Shown here: one piece after another, positions 14,109 to 25,232 of the stretch | Position numbering within the stretch: position 1 is the first letter of the stretch | Layout: the number at the start of each line of letters is the position of its first letter | Virus record (IMG/VR): IMGVR_UViG_3300007540_000092 | Span: 1-25,304 of that record | Origin: a virus | DNA length: 25,304 nucleotides | Direction: 5' to 3' (one strand) | Translations under genes and position numbers: made by a program | The notes under the pieces: generated by a model | The model's input: the letters and a program-made list of their open reading frames with translations, nothing else | What the model was told of the DNA's origin: nothing | Database searches by the model: none

Positions 14109-14906
14109 ATGGTTAAACTTATTAATCTTTTAAAAGAAATACAAGGCAGCCCTAAAGCCATAATACTAGCAGGGGCACCTGGAGCAGGTAAAGGATATGT
14201 TCTTAAAGGATTAGATCTAGGTGGTTTAAAAGTATTAAATGTAGATAATATTTACATTAATATGTTAAAACAAGCAAACGTAAGTTTAGATTTAAAAAAT
14301 GCAACACCCGAAGAAAGAAGTGAGCAAGCTAAACAAATGACAGCTGCAAATAAAGAATTTAAGGGGAATGTGTCTTCAACTATTGAAGGAAAACAATCCT
14401 TTGTATTAGATGGAACCGCTGCCTCTGTTAAACAAACTGAAACATTAAAAACAGAACTAGAAGAAGCAGGGTATGATATATTTATGCTTTATGTTTATAC
14501 TGATCTAGAACGTTCCCTAAAACAAAACCAAGACAGATTTGACAAATCCGGAGGAGAAGACAGAAGTCTAGCCCCATCTATTGTATTACGTGCTTGGGCT
14601 AGTATAACCCAAAACTATGATATATATAAAATGATGTTTGGTGATAATTTCGTATCCGTAGCAAACACCTCAGAAGATGAAAAGTTAGGTGACTTAGATA
14701 CCATTGTAGATAAATACTTAACACCCTTTACACCTAAAGGTACAAAACCTAAAGATGCTAAAACTCAAGCCAGATCAGATAAAGCTAAGGAAGCATTAAA
14801 CCAACAGGTTAATTTACTATTAAAAAATGAAACAATACAAAATATTATAAATAATTCAACATCTAAAGAAGGAGCACAATCCAAAATTAAACAATTTTTA
14901 TCTTAA
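14109..14906 (+). CDS. P-loop kinase-like protein with capsid-targeting-like N-terminus
   Basis: A 265-aa protein with a Walker A motif GAPGAGKG at residues 22-29, then LNVDNIY (about 43-49) and a second strand FVLDGTA. It contains AITQ/ITQNYDIYKMMF-type helices and a lysine-rich C-terminal tail. The fold resembles zeta-toxin or polynucleotide-kinase-type P-loop kinases; the substrate cannot be read from the sequence. The first ten residues, MVKLINLLKE, form a short amphipathic helix ending in L-K-E, which fits a T4-style capsid-targeting sequence cut by the prohead protease. If so, the kinase would be packaged and injected. The stop (TAATG) overlaps the start of the 870-aa multidomain gene by one base, so the two are co-translated. 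Confidence 0.7.
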   Translation: MVKLINLLKEIQGSPKAIILAGAPGAGKGYVLKGLDLGGLKVLNVDNIYINMLKQANVSLDLKNATPEERSEQAKQMTAANKEFKGNVSSTIEGKQSFVLDGTAASVKQTETLKTELEEAGYDIFMLYVYTDLERSLKQNQDRFDKSGGEDRSLAPSIVLRAWASITQNYDIYKMMFGDNFVSVANTSEDEKLGDLDTIVDKYLTPFTPKGTKPKDAKTQARSDKAKEALNQQVNLLLKNETIQNIINNSTSKEGAQSKIKQFLS

Positions 14907-17518
14907 TGAGTCTAGTTAACGAATTAATTAAAGGACTATTACCTGAAGAAGAAGGTAAAAAAACTATAGGTGTATTTGGTGGTGGTTTTAAACCACCCCA
15001 TAAAGGTCACTTTGAAGTTTTAAAGACAGCTTTAGATGAAAATCCTGAAATAGACGAAATGTTAGTCTTTATTGGAAAGGGAGAAAGAGATGGGATTACT
15101 CAAGAAGAATCATATAAAATTTGGGAAATTTATGGTAAATATCTTCCATTTAAAGTTAAATATATAAAATCTACAAAACCACCAATTCAACTTATATACA
15201 ACACTGCTAAAGAAAACCCTGAATCTGAAGTACTTTGGGTTATAGGAGCAAGAGAAGCTAATGATCAAGATTTTACAGATATATCTTCACGTACCAAAGG
15301 TATTACAAAATATTCTAATCTAGAGTTACGTACAATAGTAACTAAAGGAGGGACATCAGGTACAGCAGCTAGAAATGCAGCTAAAGTATCCAAAGAAAAA
15401 CTAGATGAATTCCTCCCATCATTTTTAAGTAAAAAAGAGAAACAAGATATATTTGTTTTGTTAAGTAATTCTATTATGGAAAATGCTTCTTATTCACAAA
15501 CCATAGATATCAAGAAAGAGATAGCTAAATTAACTAAATATATGCTTGACCAAGGTAAAAATATTACACCTTTACCTAAACTTATATTTAAAAATGGTGA
15601 CAGTGCAAATGCACAAGAATTTTTAGGTAAAACCGCGTATTATGACCCTGATAGTATGTCTATCGTGTTATATACTGAAGGAAGACACCCCAAGGATATA
15701 GTGCGTTCATTCTCACATGAGATAGAACATCACGTTCAAAATATTGAAGGACGTTTAGGAAATATTACCACCACTAATACCCAAGAAGACGACCACTTAA
15801 ACAAACTAGAACAAGAAGCCAATTTAAAAGGCACAATGACTTTTAGAAATTGGACTGATGGTTTAAATGAAAATCTAAATGATGGTCTCTACCCATTTAA
15901 AGTTATAGATAAAACTTATGGTGATGGAGATAATTCACTAATTACAGTTGAATATGAATTCATAACACCAACCAATCCATATAGAGTTGAATTTTATTCT
16001 GGAGAATACAACCCTGAATCAAAAACATTTGATTTATCCTTCGGGGTACATAATGGAGATTTTAATTCACTTGATACCTTCCAAATGACAGGTGAAGGTA
16101 ATGCTAGAAAAATATTTAAAACCCTTCTTACCATTGTAGAAGATTTTATAGATAAAGAAGAGGTTGAAAAAATAGTAATAAACGGGACAGATTTAAAACG
16201 TAAAAGAATTTATAAAACCCTCTTCCAATCATCACCTTCCAAAATATCCGATAAAATAGAACTTAATGAACTCAACACTCAAGAAATAAAGTATTGGGCT
16301 TTATACGCAAATATATTTGATTATTTAAATAATAAAGATTACGAACAAAAATATCAAAAATTATTACCTAAATTAAAAGGCGAACAATTAAATGCCTTAA
16401 ATTATTTTTACGAAGAATATTTTTTAAAAGATTCCCCCTTATTAAAAGTCAACACAAGTGAGGCAATAGTAGGAGATAAAATTGAATGTGACAATTGCGA
16501 TTGGAGTTGGGATATTGTAAGTGGTGGTGATGATTTATTCTTATGTCATAAATGTGGGTATGATAATACACCTTTAAATGAAAATATACTCCCTCAAGAA
16601 AAATTTGCCCAAGAAACAGGTAAAGATTGGGCTAGGGAGTCATTACGTGTTTTAGTCCTTAAAAATTATGATTTAGAAAATTATGTAATAAAAACACTAC
16701 CTTTAGAATCCATAAAACCTACTCAATTTGGTGAGGATTATATAAACGCATCTTCAGAGTATGAAGCCAAAGTATATGATAGGTATTTAAAGGGAGAAAT
16801 AGAAGCTAGGGATGTAAGAAAAGAAGATTTTTACCCCATTGTAGTTGATAAAGGTACTATGAAGATTTTAGATGGTAACCATAGACATGCTGTACATAAA
16901 ATGTTAGGTATTCCTAAAATTAAAGCCATTCTAATATCTAAAAAAATAAACGAAAATAAAAACAAAGACCCATTTGGTATAAATGCATATGCTATGGAAT
17001 TAGGAAGGTTACGAGAAGAAGAAAAAGATTATAAAATTTATGTGGATATGGATGGTGTTGTAGCCGATTTTGATCAACGTTTCAAAGATCTATCAGGTAT
17101 AAGTCCAAGAGAATTTGAAGAAAAATATGGTAAAAATGCTTTTTGGGATTTTATAGATGAAGGTGAAAACAAACTTAAATTTTGGGTTGGTATTCCTCAA
17201 ATGTCAGATGCAAAACAACTTATAGATTATGTATCTAAATATGACTATGAAATGTTAACTGCACCTTCACTTAAAAAACAATCTTTAATGGGTAAGGGTT
17301 TATGGGTGAAAAATCAAACTAATAAAGGTTTATTTCCTTCTAAACCCAAAGTAAATTATAAAAGTGCTAAAAATAAAAAAGATTTTGCTGCTCCAAATCA
17401 TATATTAATAGATGATCGAGAAGATACTATAAATAGCTGGAATACCGCAGGAGGAATTGGTATTTTACACACTAGTGCTGCTAATACTATTAGTCAATTA
17501 AAAAAATTAAGTTTATGA
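14906..17518 (+). CDS. Six-part multidomain protein: nucleotidyltransferase, zincin, unknown, zinc ribbon, ParB-like, HAD phosphatase
   Basis: This 870-aa protein strings together unrelated modules. Residues 18-190 form a cytidylyltransferase/NMNAT-like domain (GVFGGGFKPPHKGH, HxGH at 32-35; GTSGTAAR as the second signature). Residues 193-320 carry a zinc metallopeptidase motif HEIEH (271-275) with a likely third ligand in LEQEA (302 or 304). Residues 323-452 are a conserved-looking domain of unknown function. Residues 456-557 include a CxxC...CxxC zinc ribbon (528, 531, 547, 550). Residues 560-680 look ParB-like (ILDGNHRHAV, 654-663). Residues 704-870 are a HAD 5'-nucleotidase-like domain (DMDGVVADF from Asp714). 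Linkers carry (L/I)-X-E tripeptides, usually followed by Asn, and the N-terminus ends with LLPE, so processing by a prohead protease is possible. The start overlaps the kinase-like gene; the stop overlaps the next start. Confidence 0.75.
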   Translation: MSLVNELIKGLLPEEEGKKTIGVFGGGFKPPHKGHFEVLKTALDENPEIDEMLVFIGKGERDGITQEESYKIWEIYGKYLPFKVKYIKSTKPPIQLIYNTAKENPESEVLWVIGAREANDQDFTDISSRTKGITKYSNLELRTIVTKGGTSGTAARNAAKVSKEKLDEFLPSFLSKKEKQDIFVLLSNSIMENASYSQTIDIKKEIAKLTKYMLDQGKNITPLPKLIFKNGDSANAQEFLGKTAYYDPDSMSIVLYTEGRHPKDIVRSFSHEIEHHVQNIEGRLGNITTTNTQEDDHLNKLEQEANLKGTMTFRNWTDGLNENLNDGLYPFKVIDKTYGDGDNSLITVEYEFITPTNPYRVEFYSGEYNPESKTFDLSFGVHNGDFNSLDTFQMTGEGNARKIFKTLLTIVEDFIDKEEVEKIVINGTDLKRKRIYKTLFQSSPSKISDKIELNELNTQEIKYWALYANIFDYLNNKDYEQKYQKLLPKLKGEQLNALNYFYEEYFLKDSPLLKVNTSEAIVGDKIECDNCDWSWDIVSGGDDLFLCHKCGYDNTPLNENILPQEKFAQETGKDWARESLRVLVLKNYDLENYVIKTLPLESIKPTQFGEDYINASSEYEAKVYDRYLKGEIEARDVRKEDFYPIVVDKGTMKILDGNHRHAVHKMLGIPKIKAILISKKINENKNKDPFGINAYAMELGRLREEEKDYKIYVDMDGVVADFDQRFKDLSGISPREFEEKYGKNAFWDFIDEGENKLKFWVGIPQMSDAKQLIDYVSKYDYEMLTAPSLKKQSLMGKGLWVKNQTNKGLFPSKPKVNYKSAKNKKDFAAPNHILIDDREDTINSWNTAGGIGILHTSAANTISQLKKLSL

Positions 17519-19401: not shown

Positions 19402-20547
19402 ATGCTTAACGAACGTAAACTTACAGATAGAGAACTTGAAAAGCGCGAAAGCGCTATTCAAGGTCTAAAAAAGAATAAAACATCTTTAGTTAAAAAATAT
19501 GGTAAGGATGCTGAAAAAGTTATGTATGGAATTGCAACTAAACAAGCAAAACAAAAAGTTGAAAATATGAATTTAAATAACATCCAGGGCATGATACAAG
19601 ATGCTTTAAAAAACCCTAAGACTGCTGACTTAAATAAAGATGGTAAAATATCTGACTACGAAGAAAAACGTGGAAAGACCATTGAAAAAAACATTGGGGA
19701 AGCACATTCAGGAAATCCAGACGATAGATATGAAGTAAAAAAAGGACAAGGATTTGCTGATTATGAAGTATGGGAAGGGAATGTAAAGGTAAAGGAGTTT
19801 AGCGGAAAAGATGCTAAAGAAAGAGCAGATACTGAAGCTAAAAGATTAAATGTTTTACAAGATGCCAAAAGAGTAGATAAAGCTCAAGTAGGAGAAGATT
19901 TAGATGTAGGACATCAAGACAACGAACCATCAATGTTAAAATCAGACGTATACCGTATAGCTAAAATGGCTTCAATGTTATATAAACAACTAGATTCCTA
20001 TGATAATATGGGTGAAGTTGATTTTCCACATTGGTGGCAAGCTAAAATTATCAAAGCATACGATTATTTACAATCAGCTTACGGTTATTTAGATGGTCAA
20101 GAAAAAATGGCACAAATAGATGCAATAATTAACTTGGGTGAAATTAAAACTGACTTATATGGAAATAATATTGAAGTCCCTTTTAAAAAAGGATATAATA
20201 CAGGGGAAATTAAAGAAATGATAAAATCTTCTCTAATAAAAAAAACAGATAATTCTATTTTTAAAAAAAAAACTAACGTAGAGGAAAATCTTGACAAAGA
20301 CAAAATGTCTTGTAATAAACCTAAAAGAGATACAAAACATAAAACCAAATCTCACGTTGTAAAAGCATGTGAAAAAGGAAAAGAAAAAATCATTAGATTT
20401 GGTCAACAAGGAGTAAAAGGAGCAGGATCTGCCCCTAAAAGTGATAAACAAAAATCCCGTCAAAAGGCATTTAAAGCCCGACACAAGAGTAATATTAAAA
20501 AGGGTAAAATGAGTGCTGCGTACTGGGCCGATAAAGTTAAATGGTAA
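19402..20547 (+). CDS. Modular protein with EF-hand-like loop and basic C-terminal domain
   Basis: A 381-aa protein with several modules. Residues 5-55 are a basic helical segment ([20 protein letters not shown]) that recurs in marine phage proteins I remember. Residues 76-87 are a canonical calcium-binding loop, [12 protein letters not shown] (D-x-N-x-D-G-x-I-x3-E). A compact domain follows from about residue 168, with [11 protein letters not shown] and HWWQ (210-213), also familiar from T4-like cyanophages and their relatives. The last 80 residues are very basic, begin [11 protein letters not shown], and end in [13 protein letters not shown], a tail also seen in viral DNA-associated proteins. 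The composition fits a packaged or DNA-binding protein. Calcium binding is predicted from the loop alone. Function unknown. Confidence 0.6.
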
Positions 20548-22825: not shown

Positions 22826-22833
22826 TATAAATA
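22826..22833 (+). promoter_or_regulatory. TATAAATA box after the terminator
   Basis: TATAAATA, the T4 late-promoter octamer, lies 13 bases after the terminator's T-run and nine bases before the ATG of the 41-aa ORF. The octamer is common by chance in such AT-rich DNA; the location at a transcript boundary is the only other support. Confidence 0.3.
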
Positions 22834-22842
22834 ATAAAAATT

Positions 22843-22968
22843 ATGATTAAAAAATTCAAAAAATGGCTTAAAGATGTTTTATATCAAAACATAATAATAG
22901 TTGAAGATATTAAGAATAGTAAAATTACCATAAACAATAAAGTAGTTTATGATGATACCAAAAAATAA
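22843..22968 (+). CDS. Small ORF, 41 aa
   Basis: ATG at 22843 opens 41 codons: a basic N-terminus, MIKKFKKWLKDVL, then IIIVEDIKNSKITIN and VVYDDTKK, ending at TAA 22966-22968. It lies after the terminator, next to a TATAAATA box at 22826-22833, and just before HEG2, whose ATG at 22970 starts one base after its stop. The alternation of hydrophobic and charged residues looks protein-like, but the length gives little support. It might be an independent small gene or the stump of a gene interrupted by HEG2. Confidence 0.4.
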   Translation: MIKKFKKWLKDVLYQNIIIVEDIKNSKITINNKVVYDDTKK

Positions 22969-22969
22969 C

Positions 22970-23632
22970 ATGACTCATATTTACATATTAGAGAGAGACG
23001 AGGTTCCATTTTATGTTGGAAAGACAAAAGACACTAGAAGAAGATTAAATAAACATAGAATAGATAAAGGGAGAAATATTAACCTAGTCATTATTGATGA
23101 AATTAATGAAAATTGGAGATTTTGGGAAAAGTATTGGATAGAACAATTTCAACAATGGGGTTTTATATTAGAAAATAAAAATAGTGGAGGGGGAGGGTTA
23201 GACTTTTGGAGTGTTGCTCAAATAAATAACCATAAAAAGTTATATACCCCCGAATTAATATCTAAGATTATTACCCCTAACAGGAATAGGAAAATAAGTA
23301 AAACTTTAAATGAAAGAGATCATTCTAAATATTATACTAAGAAAGTAAAAGAAAAAATATCTAGAGCTTTAAAAGGTAAACCAAAAAATTTTACCCAAGA
23401 ACATATAAATAATTTAAAAATAGCTAATCTAGAATCTAAAGGTAAAATGGTTTATTGTTATGATTTAGAAAATAAATACATTGGTGAATTTAGATGTTTA
23501 AGAGAAGCTAAAGAATGGTTATTACATAAAAAACCAAGAATTTCAAAAAACGTAGATAAACAAATAAAAGACTGTTGTAATGGAAGACAAAAAAAATGTC
23601 ATGGGTATAGATGGAGATACTCAAAAATTTAG
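22970..23632 (+). CDS. GIY-YIG homing endonuclease (HEG2)
   Basis: A 220-aa free-standing homing endonuclease. It begins MTHIYILERDEVPFYVGKTK: IYIL and YVGKT form the GIY-YIG core. Arg in RRLNKHR, Glu in FWEKYWIEQF, and the NKNSGGGG loop complete the domain. A NUMOD3-like repeat follows (EKISRALKGKPK), then a full NUMOD1-type module (YCYDLENKYIGEF to CCNGRQKKCHGYRWRY). I chose the ATG at 22970, which leaves the 41-aa ORF whole; an upstream in-frame ATG at 22949 would add seven residues. The 3' end overlaps the ATG of the FAD oxidoreductase (23580) in another frame. It ends in TAG. It is closely related to HEG1 and HEG3 in the catalytic half and seems intact. Confidence 0.85.
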   Translation: MTHIYILERDEVPFYVGKTKDTRRRLNKHRIDKGRNINLVIIDEINENWRFWEKYWIEQFQQWGFILENKNSGGGGLDFWSVAQINNHKKLYTPELISKIITPNRNRKISKTLNERDHSKYYTKKVKEKISRALKGKPKNFTQEHINNLKIANLESKGKMVYCYDLENKYIGEFRCLREAKEWLLHKKPRISKNVDKQIKDCCNGRQKKCHGYRWRYSKI

Positions 23633-24161
23633 CAAAAAAATAGTAATAGTTGGGGGAGGAGTAGCTGGAGCTAACACTGTCACTAAACTTGTAGATAATG
23701 GCTACCCAGGTCATTTAATAACTATAATAGATAAAGGTAATGACCCTTATAAAAGACTCCCTGAAGAAACCATGACAGGTTGGCTAGGATGTGGAGGGTG
23801 GTCAGATGGAAAATTAACATATCATACTTCTATTGGAGGTCAATTATCAAAATATTGTGGTGAAGAAAAAGCCATGGAATTAATGAAACAAGTAGTAGAT
23901 AATTTCACTCGTTTCCACCCCAAACCCGAAGAAATATTTATGTCTGACCCTAAGGAAGAACCTGAATTTATTAAACCACACTTTGGTTTAAGAATGTTTC
24001 CTGTTTGGCATATTGGAAGTAATTACCTTCTTCTTATTGCTCAAGAATGGTACCAATATTTATTATCGAAGGGTGTTAATTTCTTATGGCAACATGAGGT
24101 CACCAATATAAATTTTGAAACTAATGAAGTCGAATATAAACCAATCGAGAGTAAAAAATAA
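23580..24161 (+). CDS. FAD-dependent oxidoreductase, N-terminal part of a split gene
   Basis: This 193-aa ORF begins, after a short leader, with KKIVIVGGGVAGANT, a Rossmann FAD-binding glycine motif. It continues with GWLGCGGWSDGKLTYHTS and GGQLSKYCG and then VWHIGSNY. These match the layout of COG2509-type FAD-dependent dehydrogenases (GAGAFSDGKL, then HIGTD). Family members are roughly 450-550 aa, so about 60 percent is missing. The ORF stops at 24161 soon after NINFETNEVEYK, where the family should run on to an AvGRsG strand. That strand appears at 25236-25304 (YDSLIFAVGKSG). The gene is therefore split by the 1.1 kb holding HEG3 and the ART-like gene. The first codons overlap HEG2; an internal ATG at 23601 is also possible. 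The substrate is unknown. Confidence 0.75.
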   Translation: MEDKKNVMGIDGDTQKFSKKIVIVGGGVAGANTVTKLVDNGYPGHLITIIDKGNDPYKRLPEETMTGWLGCGGWSDGKLTYHTSIGGQLSKYCGEEKAMELMKQVVDNFTRFHPKPEEIFMSDPKEEPEFIKPHFGLRMFPVWHIGSNYLLLIAQEWYQYLLSKGVNFLWQHEVTNINFETNEVEYKPIESKK

Positions 24162-24798
24162 AGTTTTTATATATTATTTAGAAAAAAATAATATTATATT
24201 TTATATAGGTAAAACAAAAAACCCTAAATCAAGGGAAGCTGATTGGAAAAGAGAATATGGTGAAGATTTAAAATTTTTTATAATAGATGAAGTTGATAAT
24301 AATGAATGGAAGGTTTGGGAATGTTATTGGATTGAACAATTTAAACAATGGGGATTTAATTTAATAAATCAAAATAAAGGTGGAGGGGGATTAGAAAAAC
24401 ATTCTGATGAAACTATTGAAAAGATTAGATTAAAGAAGATTGGTATAAAACAAAATAGAACTAAGATAAGAAAAGATAAAGGCAAAAAACATAAAAAAAC
24501 TAAAGGAATTAAAATTGGAAGACCTGAAGGATTTGTTTATAGTGATGAATTAAAACTTCATTTAAGTAATAAAATGAAGGGAGTACCAAAACACACAGAA
24601 GAGGGAAAATTTAAATTTACAAACAAAAAAATATACACTTTTGTCAACCTTGATACTGGTGAAAAATTTAAAGGTATTAGATATAACTTTCAAAATAAAT
24701 ATAATCTGAGATATAAAGGAATATATAATTTAGTTACAAATAAAGCAAAAACATATAAAGGATGGAAAATAAAGAATTTAAAAGGTGGCAAAAATTAG
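24124..24798 (+). CDS. GIY-YIG homing endonuclease (HEG3) inserted in the FAD oxidoreductase gene
   Basis: A 224-aa homing endonuclease. IYYLEKNNIIFYIGKT gives the GIY-YIG core; WECYWIEQFKQWGF carries the Glu, and the NQNKGGGG loop follows. A very basic linker leads to a C-terminal NUMOD1-like module ending TYKGWKIK. The ATG at 24124 is preferred to a TTG at 24115. The first 38 bases overlap the end of the truncated oxidoreductase ORF in another frame. The last 37 bases overlap the start of the ART-like gene. It ends in TAG like HEG2. Its catalytic domain is closest to HEG2 of the two relatives in the window (shared YWIEQF-x-QWGF). It appears intact and is presumably the agent of the gene split. 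Confidence 0.85.
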   Translation: MKSNINQSRVKNKVFIYYLEKNNIIFYIGKTKNPKSREADWKREYGEDLKFFIIDEVDNNEWKVWECYWIEQFKQWGFNLINQNKGGGGLEKHSDETIEKIRLKKIGIKQNRTKIRKDKGKKHKKTKGIKIGRPEGFVYSDELKLHLSNKMKGVPKHTEEGKFKFTNKKIYTFVNLDTGEKFKGIRYNFQNKYNLRYKGIYNLVTNKAKTYKGWKIKNLKGGKN

Positions 24799-25232
24799 CT
24801 GGAATACTAAAAGAAGATAAAGAATTTCAAAAAGGTAATTTAGTTTATCATTCAACAGATATACAAAATGCTTCAAATATTTTAAAAAGTGGTGAAATCA
24901 AAACTTATGAAGACATATTAAAAGCAGCAAATCAAAATCCTGAAGATTGGTATGAAGACCCCAATTATGGTAAATTTGTATATGTTTCTGATTTTCCACA
25001 TAATAATAATAATTTTTATGGGTTAGGGGATTTGGATGTTACATTTGTAATAGATAGTAACAACATAAAACATAAAATGATACAAGCTGATAAAAGTTAT
25101 GAAGGTGGAACTATTTCGGTGCAAGGTAATATTCCTATAACATCTATTACTAAAGTTATACTTCATAACTCAGATGAGAATTTAATTAAATTACTAAATA
25201 ATAAAAAAATTGAATTTCAAATTCAAAAATAA
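24762..25232 (+). CDS. ADP-ribosyltransferase-like protein with capsid-targeting-like leader
   Basis: A 156-aa protein. The leader MENKEFKRWQKLAGILKE ends in L-K-E (16-18), a strong match to a T4-style capsid-targeting sequence. It is followed by LVYHSTDIQNASNILKSGEI (28-46), the YH-x-T...A-x2-IL-x-G opening of small ART-fold enzymes (PARP/KptA/DarT-like). A middle strand has KFVYVSD (about 71-77), and GGTISVQGNIPITSITKVIL (115-134) resembles the last strand with IP-x3-I. A catalytic Glu is not obvious near that strand, so activity is uncertain. If packaged and active it would be a functional analogue of T4 Alt, which ADP-ribosylates host RNA polymerase on injection. The gene sits between HEG3 and the second half of the FAD gene, with its ATG inside HEG3. 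Confidence 0.55.
   Translation: MENKEFKRWQKLAGILKEDKEFQKGNLVYHSTDIQNASNILKSGEIKTYEDILKAANQNPEDWYEDPNYGKFVYVSDFPHNNNNFYGLGDLDVTFVIDSNNIKHKMIQADKSYEGGTISVQGNIPITSITKVILHNSDENLIKLLNNKKIEFQIQK

Follow-up and report, generated by a model that had tools for sequence, protein, structure and literature searches.

Prohead-protease-type motifs at the module joints of an 870-residue protein from a T4-like phage, a predicted capsid-targeted cargo precursor

The IMG/VR virus record IMGVR_UViG_3300007540_000092, analysed here over its 25,304 bases (the window), spans the part of a T4-like phage genome that carries tail, cargo and primase genes. An open reading frame with an ATG start at 14906–17518 on the + strand encodes a protein of 870 residues built of modules, and (L/I)-X-E sites like those cut by the gp21-type prohead protease lie at the joints between them. 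This placement is real. From sequence comparison we think it likely that the protein is a modular cargo precursor, targeted to the capsid and cut at its joints by the prohead protease. RNA viruses and retroviruses typically make polyproteins from which several functional enzymes are cut; a non-exhaustive search of the open-access literature found no report of a tailed-phage polyprotein cut into several enzymes by a prohead protease.

The 870-residue protein and its (L/I)-X-E sites

The leader, the modules and a spacer peptide follow one another along the reading frame:

14906–14947 (+), residues 1–14: N-terminal leader MSLVNELIKGLLPE, a predicted capsid-targeting propeptide ending in L-P-E
14948–15481 (+), residues 15–192: d1, NMNAT-like module (nicotinate/nicotinamide mononucleotide adenylyltransferase) with HxGH and SGTAARN motifs
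15482–15871 (+), residues 193–322: d2, zincin-like metallopeptidase module (HEIEHH), ending in LNE at 15863–15871
15872–16270 (+), residues 323–455: d3, DUF6934 module (PF22028, E 7e-10), ending in LNE at 16262–16270
16271–16582 (+), residues 456–559: d4 and zinc ribbon, a helical segment and then CDNC..CHKC, ending in LNE at 16574–16582
16583–16954 (+), residues 560–683: d5, ParB-like module (DGNHRHA) with weak ParB-like matches in PHROG, ending in INE at 16946–16954
16955–17017 (+), residues 684–704: spacer peptide NKNKDPFGINAYAMELGRLRE, with INE before it and LRE at its end (17009–17017)
17018–17515 (+), residues 705–870: d6, HAD-fold module resembling 5'-3' deoxyribonucleotidases (phrog_2643, E 6e-24; HAD matches in Foldseek)

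An earlier note on this DNA had proposed that (L/I)-X-E sites fall where one module ends and the next begins, and all seven sites that it named are found in place: LPE at residues 12–14, (S)IMEN at 189–193, (G)LNEN at 319–323, (E)LNE(L) at 452–456, (P)LNEN at 556–560, (K)INEN at 680–684 and RLRE at 701–704, with Asn after the Glu at four sites and before it at four, as had been counted. The total of (L/I)-X-E tripeptides in the protein is not above what its composition provides (13 versus 12.2 ± 3.0 in composition shuffles), so an overall excess was rejected and the argument rests on the position of the sites only. Seven of the eight module borders have an (L/I)-X-E within five residues, versus a random mean of 1.3 (P = 5e-5); these borders were drawn mainly from homologues, as BLAST module ends and family cuts, and some were set by eye from stand-alone homologues. 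The (L/I)NE form occurs four times versus 0.8 expected (P = 0.007).

The modules had been described as unrelated enzymes, and comparison bears this out, with a NadD/NMNAT fold for d1, a zincin-like HExxH module for d2, DUF6934 for d3, a weak ParB-like assignment for d5 and a HAD fold for d6. Among the folding alignments A4 was used, and A2 and A3, which had non-colinear, misaligned rows, were left out. The full-length AlphaFold2 (AF2) model is confident for d1 and d6 only, with low confidence over d2–d5, and shows the leader as a helix at residues 2–11 followed by coil. Module d1, which ends in SIME (IME at 15473–15481), matches NadD in Foldseek (best E 5.4e-06) and, weakly by sequence, NMNAT in phmmer, with PF01467 below its cut-off. 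In d2 the HExxH and a downstream Glu are invariant in 21 homologues, and the model gives a helix, three strands, the HExxH helix and a second helix, the order of secondary structure reported for the zincins of polyvalent proteins (PMC5512222). The best Foldseek matches of d2 are zincins, weak ones at E 0.06–0.1 (selecase, IrrE and Spartan). The zinc ribbon proper lies at 16460–16576 and probably stays joined to d4 in this protein.

Module shuffling and the border motif in relatives

Viral contigs were scanned with the 870-residue protein, which gave 42 loci, and with the zinc ribbon, which gave 191 matches of which 80 were kept, and together these yielded 74 non-redundant polyproteins, the longest of 1496 residues. 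Their module order and content vary widely; the window protein has six or seven modules. Usually the NMNAT-like domain leads, and the HAD domain closes the chain or forms a separate adjacent gene; the zincin and the ribbon swap places, and the ribbon is found in most of the 74. In the relative at locus L155 the d5 module sits between LNE/N and LNE/N (here and below a slash marks the position after the Glu). Further modules in the relatives include a second zincin-like family, M48/M78-like peptidases (a match of this type in L011), RegB-like, ART-PolyVal-like and YunG-like domains and others, several of them below curated cut-offs. The domain repertoire typical of polyvalent proteins is represented by the zincin-like d2, the weakly ParB-like d5 and a weak ART-PolyVal match in L135. 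At L120 (6223–8166) a related polyprotein combines DUF6267 with a plastocyanin/cupredoxin domain (PF00127, E 3.5e-15). A tblastn search for the zinc ribbon in named phages gave no match.

Module starts were defined without reference to any motif, as the ends of BLAST HSPs between shuffled relatives only. An [LI]xE was found within 7 residues of 214 of the 528 starts, versus 82.8 ± 8.2 at random positions, and when all 400 A-x-B patterns were ranked L-x-E came first (156 versus 54) and V-x-E second, with I-x-E also listed. There was little or no enrichment with Asp, Lys, Asn or Gln at P1, or with F/Y/W, A/G/S/T or D/E/K/R at P3. Homologous borders are not independent, and for this reason distinct module pairings were counted too: across 35 of them (L/I/V)-x-E is present at 72% of borders versus 21% in the background (p = 2e-10). 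In the border logo, where P3 and P1 are imposed by the selection of sites and P2 and P1' are free, P3 is Leu (59%), Ile (22%) or Val (15%), P2 is Asn in 42%, P1 is Glu and P1' is Asn, Gly or Ala. Linkers that vary in length retain the motif, as in SITGNKLDE/SIVG and SLDGTEVSSLNE/AIVG. Conservation of the LNEN and INEN linkers among homologues had been proposed as a check; what is kept is P3 and P1, and P2 varies freely.

These borders could in principle have been made by DNA rather than protein chemistry, the linker being a recombination site that spreads modules and the encoded peptide being incidental. Modules are indeed heavily shuffled at the linkers, and one LNE 9-mer, TTAAATGAA, accounts for 56 of 85. 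The LNE codons are nevertheless near the background of these proteins and 12 different 9-mers are in use, which indicates selection mainly on the peptide; P2 is free, and P3 alternates among Leu, Ile, Val and Met. Codon use thus led us to reject a DNA recombination site, an explanation to which we give next to no weight.

A family represented in the window at 19402–20547 starts with (M)LNERKLTE..ELE. Its relatives, of 406–841 residues and including gp079 of the cultured Flavobacterium phage immuto (vB_FspM_immuto_2-6A), have shuffled modules and LNE-type joints, and it is probably a second cargo polyprotein.

Leaders, stand-alone genes and head genes

Two further genes of the window bear on the leader:

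14109–14906 (+): zeta-toxin/P-loop kinase-like gene directly upstream of the 870-residue protein (PF06414, E 2e-16)
24762–25232 (+): probable second cargo gene with leader MENKEFKRWQKLAGILKE, which is like the C-terminus of relatives' gp22-type scaffold proteins

Modules of the polyproteins also occur as single genes behind short leaders. Stand-alone DUF6934 genes start with MIKLIDILKE/, MIKLLNILKE/, MIKLISILKE/ and similar sequences and end in ..KIEIK, and in polyproteins DUF6934 begins, after L-x-E, at the same point as in the stand-alone form. The zinc ribbon stands alone in L145 as MIKLKNILTE/SIVGNKIVCDNC. The HAD domain, which in about 26 relatives is a separate gene with its own leader, has an upstream LxE in 63 of 65 contexts, single or fused. 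The zeta-toxin-like gene has one in 46 of 46, and in L092 and L131 it is fused as the first module of the polyprotein. Loci L145 and L180 contain rows of unrelated genes with a near-identical ten-residue leader (MIKLKDILTE, MIKLISILKE and variants), like a bank of cargo genes.

The zeta gene in the window has the ten-residue leader MVKLINLLKE/ (14109–14138). Among 35 distinct zeta leaders of this length, Leu at 4, Leu at 7 and Glu at 10 are invariant and only Leu and Ile occur at position 8, while positions 3, 5, 6, 9 and 11–14 drift. In T4 internal protein IPIII the first ten residues suffice for packaging, with positions 4 and 7 serving targeting and 8 and 10 processing by gp21 (PMC9026906). 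Of 887 gene families from the collected loci, 49 have an [LIV]xE whose Glu is residue 10, versus 17.0 ± 3.3 per position. Leaders are present on 53 polyproteins among 67 distinct relatives, all with [LIVM]-x-E, and P3 and P1 are their most conserved columns. The leader of the 870-residue protein is longer, at 14 residues, and only its P3 and P1 are clear; both it and the 10-residue zeta leader fall within the T4-type length of 10–19 residues.

Alternatively, the polyproteins may be fusions of former single genes in which L-x-E is a relic of the leader; the chain would then enter the head and the next host uncut and work as a multidomain polyvalent protein. The border L-x-E coincides with the end of the stand-alone leader, as this would predict, and the virion RNA polymerase of phage N4 is packaged unprocessed (PMC5512222). 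Leader residues 1–7, with the conserved L4 and L7, are lost at internal borders, though, and only P3 and P1 are kept, even in linkers of variable length; relics should decay, yet the motif is retained in 72% of distinct pairings. We regard intact packaging of such fusions as unlikely, if the most serious of the alternatives to cleavage at the joints.

In one subgroup of polyproteins (L036, L040, L041, L113, L139 and L141) the chain starts at the NMNAT core (MIALYPGAYKPPHRGHF) and is leaderless, and the adjacent zeta and HAD genes keep their leaders. The spacer peptide belongs to a family, F3, of peptides of ~25 residues with the form KDPFGLNAYARELA-x-GLEE, which comprises 41 segments in relatives besides 16955–17017 of the window; it moves between different modules, is always internal and is never N-terminal, and no stand-alone genes starting with the KDPFGLNAYA peptide were found. 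The peptide may be a second, internal signal for targeting or retention, and some of the leaderless polyproteins could be accounted for in this way.

The leader of the gene at 24762–25232, FKRWQKLAGILKE (F-K-R-W-Q-K-L-A-G-I-L-K-E), matches the C-terminal scaffold tails RMQKLAGII and RWQKLAGIIK of relatives' gp22-type proteins, and the same likeness is seen in the leaders of immuto gp083 and of genes in L163 and L171. From this likeness we infer that leaders may dock where the scaffold tail docks, the cargo mimicking that tail.

Of 25 related records, 6 encode a Peptidase_S77 (gp21-type) prohead protease and 4 a gp23-type capsid protein, the rest being mostly fragments; immuto has both, its protease being gp070. 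All 7 proteases have an [LMV]xE 20–30 residues before the C-terminus (LNE/G twice, LQE/G twice, and LNE/S, MHE/S and VKE/S once each), in the region reported to be processed in T4 gp21 and phiKZ gp175, and a conserved VxE precedes the mature core of the capsid proteins. In immuto the portal, protease, scaffold and capsid genes lie just downstream of the cargo block. The primase-to-terminase block of this phage has an N-terminal LxE in 17 of its 21 genes, versus a background of 33% (Fisher p = 2e-5), a level at which its early/metabolic, baseplate/fiber and tail blocks remain. Its polyprotein gp088 has candidate L-x-E-type joints that include LAE, before ALDDGSEVVALYAGGFKPP, and MAE, before GRYDTV; further candidate sites are LLE in gp087, LTE in gp231 and ITE in gp083.

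The distribution of the motif bears on which protease would act. Iyer and colleagues proposed for polyvalent proteins that an embedded zincin cuts the chain in cis, a model put forward for DdrB of phage P1 and others (PMC5512222), and a zincin-like module is present in most of the relatives. The S77 protease and the capsid protein, however, have the same L-x-E, and so do the leaders of single-module genes that lack a zincin; the polyproteins of L044, L120 and L145 have the linkers but not this zincin; and the motif is that of gp21. Cutting by the zincin is for these reasons improbable. We think still less of the idea that the protein has nothing to do with the head and works in the cytosol like any other multidomain enzyme, its linkers being flexible and rich in Asn and Glu. 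Such linkers are plausible in AT-rich marine phages and some relatives are leaderless, but the enrichment is specific to L/I/V at P3 and Glu at P1, the ten-residue leaders have T4-type conserved positions and the immuto gene block adjoins the head genes.

Elsewhere in the window, a 35-bp sequence at 22828–22862, intergenic and before a GIY-YIG ORF, is an 83% identical copy of part of the d4 region (ORF nt 1421–1455). GIY-YIG homing-endonuclease-like ORFs at 22949–23632 and 24115–24798 flank a truncated N-terminal fragment of an FAD/NAD-binding oxidoreductase (23580–24161), which they may interrupt.

Proposed processing, comparison with known systems and implications

In the mechanism that we favour, cleavage at the joints by the prohead protease, the short amphipathic N-terminal leader would steer the precursor into the core of the prohead, in the way that internal proteins of T4 are steered by their capsid-targeting sequence. 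The S77 (gp21-type) protease would then cut after the Glu of the (L/I/V)-X-E joints, most often L-N-E, and remove the leader. This would release an NMNAT-like enzyme, a zincin-like module, a DUF6934 protein, a helical/zinc-ribbon protein, a ParB-like protein, a HAD nucleotidase and the 21-residue spacer. The products would stay in the head, be injected with the DNA and act at once in the next host, where NAD+, nucleotides and host proteins or nucleic acids are plausible targets. Delivery with the DNA is read solely from the leader and the gene position, while injection and action in the new host are suggested by T4 precedent and by the nature of the modules. Phage reconstitution of NAD+ is known (PMC12774641, PMC9503650), and the NMNAT-like enzyme could help to rebuild NAD+ against NAD+-depleting defences. 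With a cutting site of its own, each module could be gained, lost or reordered without new folded linkers, and could switch between polyprotein and single gene.

The earlier proposal is supported in part. Its core, a predicted capsid-targeted multi-enzyme polyprotein cut by a prohead protease, is well supported by comparison, through the shuffling at L-x-E borders, the single genes with L-x-E leaders, the T4-type leader positions and the S77 protease and gp23-type capsid protein of relatives. Several of its details need amendment. It had put cleavage after packaging, and by the example of T4 the precursor would be cut in the prohead, ahead of DNA packaging. It had also predicted up to six separate proteins; six larger fragments, of about 20, 15, 15, 12, 14 and 19 kDa, are indeed expected, given that d4 and the ribbon are probably joined, together with two short peptides, the leader and the 21-residue spacer that RLRE would free.

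Several observations weigh against this mechanism. At the eighth border, where the helical d4 meets the zinc ribbon (about residue 518, VNTSE-A), a canonical site is missing. Six further (L/I)-X-E tripeptides lie inside modules, where the earlier note had seen such tripeptides, and folding would have to protect them. Structure prediction had been proposed as a check on site exposure: the leader and the joints are predicted in coil or low-confidence stretches, which is linker-like and is not proof, and with the low AF2 confidence of d2–d5 exposure is only suggested. The notion that one leader carries several effectors is not general, since 18 of the 61 scorable relatives (~30%) have no N-terminal leader and begin with the NMNAT core, and 12 of these 18 are also without an internal spacer. 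On four other contigs leaders were not significantly enriched near the polyprotein (30/68 near versus 63/191 far, p = 0.11), although in the better annotated immuto genome they are. Applied to the remaining proteins of the loci, the breakpoint test gave 6 versus 2.7 expected at 29 breakpoints in structural and replication proteins, a control that is too small, as most control breakpoints had come from the second cargo family (LNERKLTE...). Protease, scaffold and capsid genes are absent from the window, which is a fragment, and no virion proteomics, cleavage or packaging data for immuto or any other member were found in the open-access literature.

The closest parallel is with IPI–IPIII and Alt of T4 (PMC9026906, PMC3012670, PMC5694885), which have a leader of 10–19 residues with key positions 4, 7, 8 and 10 and an L/I-X-E cleavage motif; diverse cargo genes behind a common leader are likewise shared, and relatives of the window protein occur with an S77 protease and a gp23-type capsid. 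Each T4 cargo gene gives one mature protein, although Alt is trimmed on either side (ITE-6 and LTE-619), whereas here up to six enzymes per precursor are predicted to be released at internal sites. Polyvalent proteins (Iyer et al. 2017, PMC5512222) also combine unrelated effector domains in one chain (zincin, ParB-like, ART, GNAT and others), in mosaic architectures for which packaging and injection are predicted. They differ in that processing is ascribed to zincins or to a fused assemblin-like peptidase, and no linker motif, leader, NMNAT hub or trans-acting prohead protease was found described there, the terms 'linker' and 'NMNAT' being absent from the text. The giant-phage ejection proteins processed by phiKZ gp175 and SPN3US gp245 (PMC10052503, PMC9026906) share the S77 protease, a short X-X-E motif and ejection cargo, but apart from self-cleavage the gp245 cleavages identified in SPN3US yield N-terminal propeptides, not several enzymes, and the motif is A-X-E or S/A-X-E rather than L-X-E. 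DarB and DdrB of phage P1 are large multidomain injected proteins with an N-terminal capsid-targeting signal, and DdrB is reported to be processed before packaging (PMC9024508, PMC5512222); for the Dar proteins neither a common leader sequence nor cleavage sites recurring between modules are reported. We read the proposed mechanism as like that of the T4 internal-protein/gp21 system, and the mosaic content as like that of polyvalent proteins.

On a wider view, to which we give roughly even chances, a broad group of marine T4-like phages would use plug-in delivery: any gene behind a short L-x-E leader would be head cargo, cargo genes would be strung into interchangeable polyproteins with prohead-protease joints, and one targeting event would load a stoichiometric set of enzymes. 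If the proposed processing is true, it would show how phages load many early-acting effectors using one signal, and a sequence rule (L4, L7, L8 and E10 in the leader, L-x-E at the joints) would find packaged effectors in the genomes of uncultured phages. Tens of uncharacterised modules would gain a predicted place and time of action, and the delivery of proteins with phage capsids would have a natural template of modular design.

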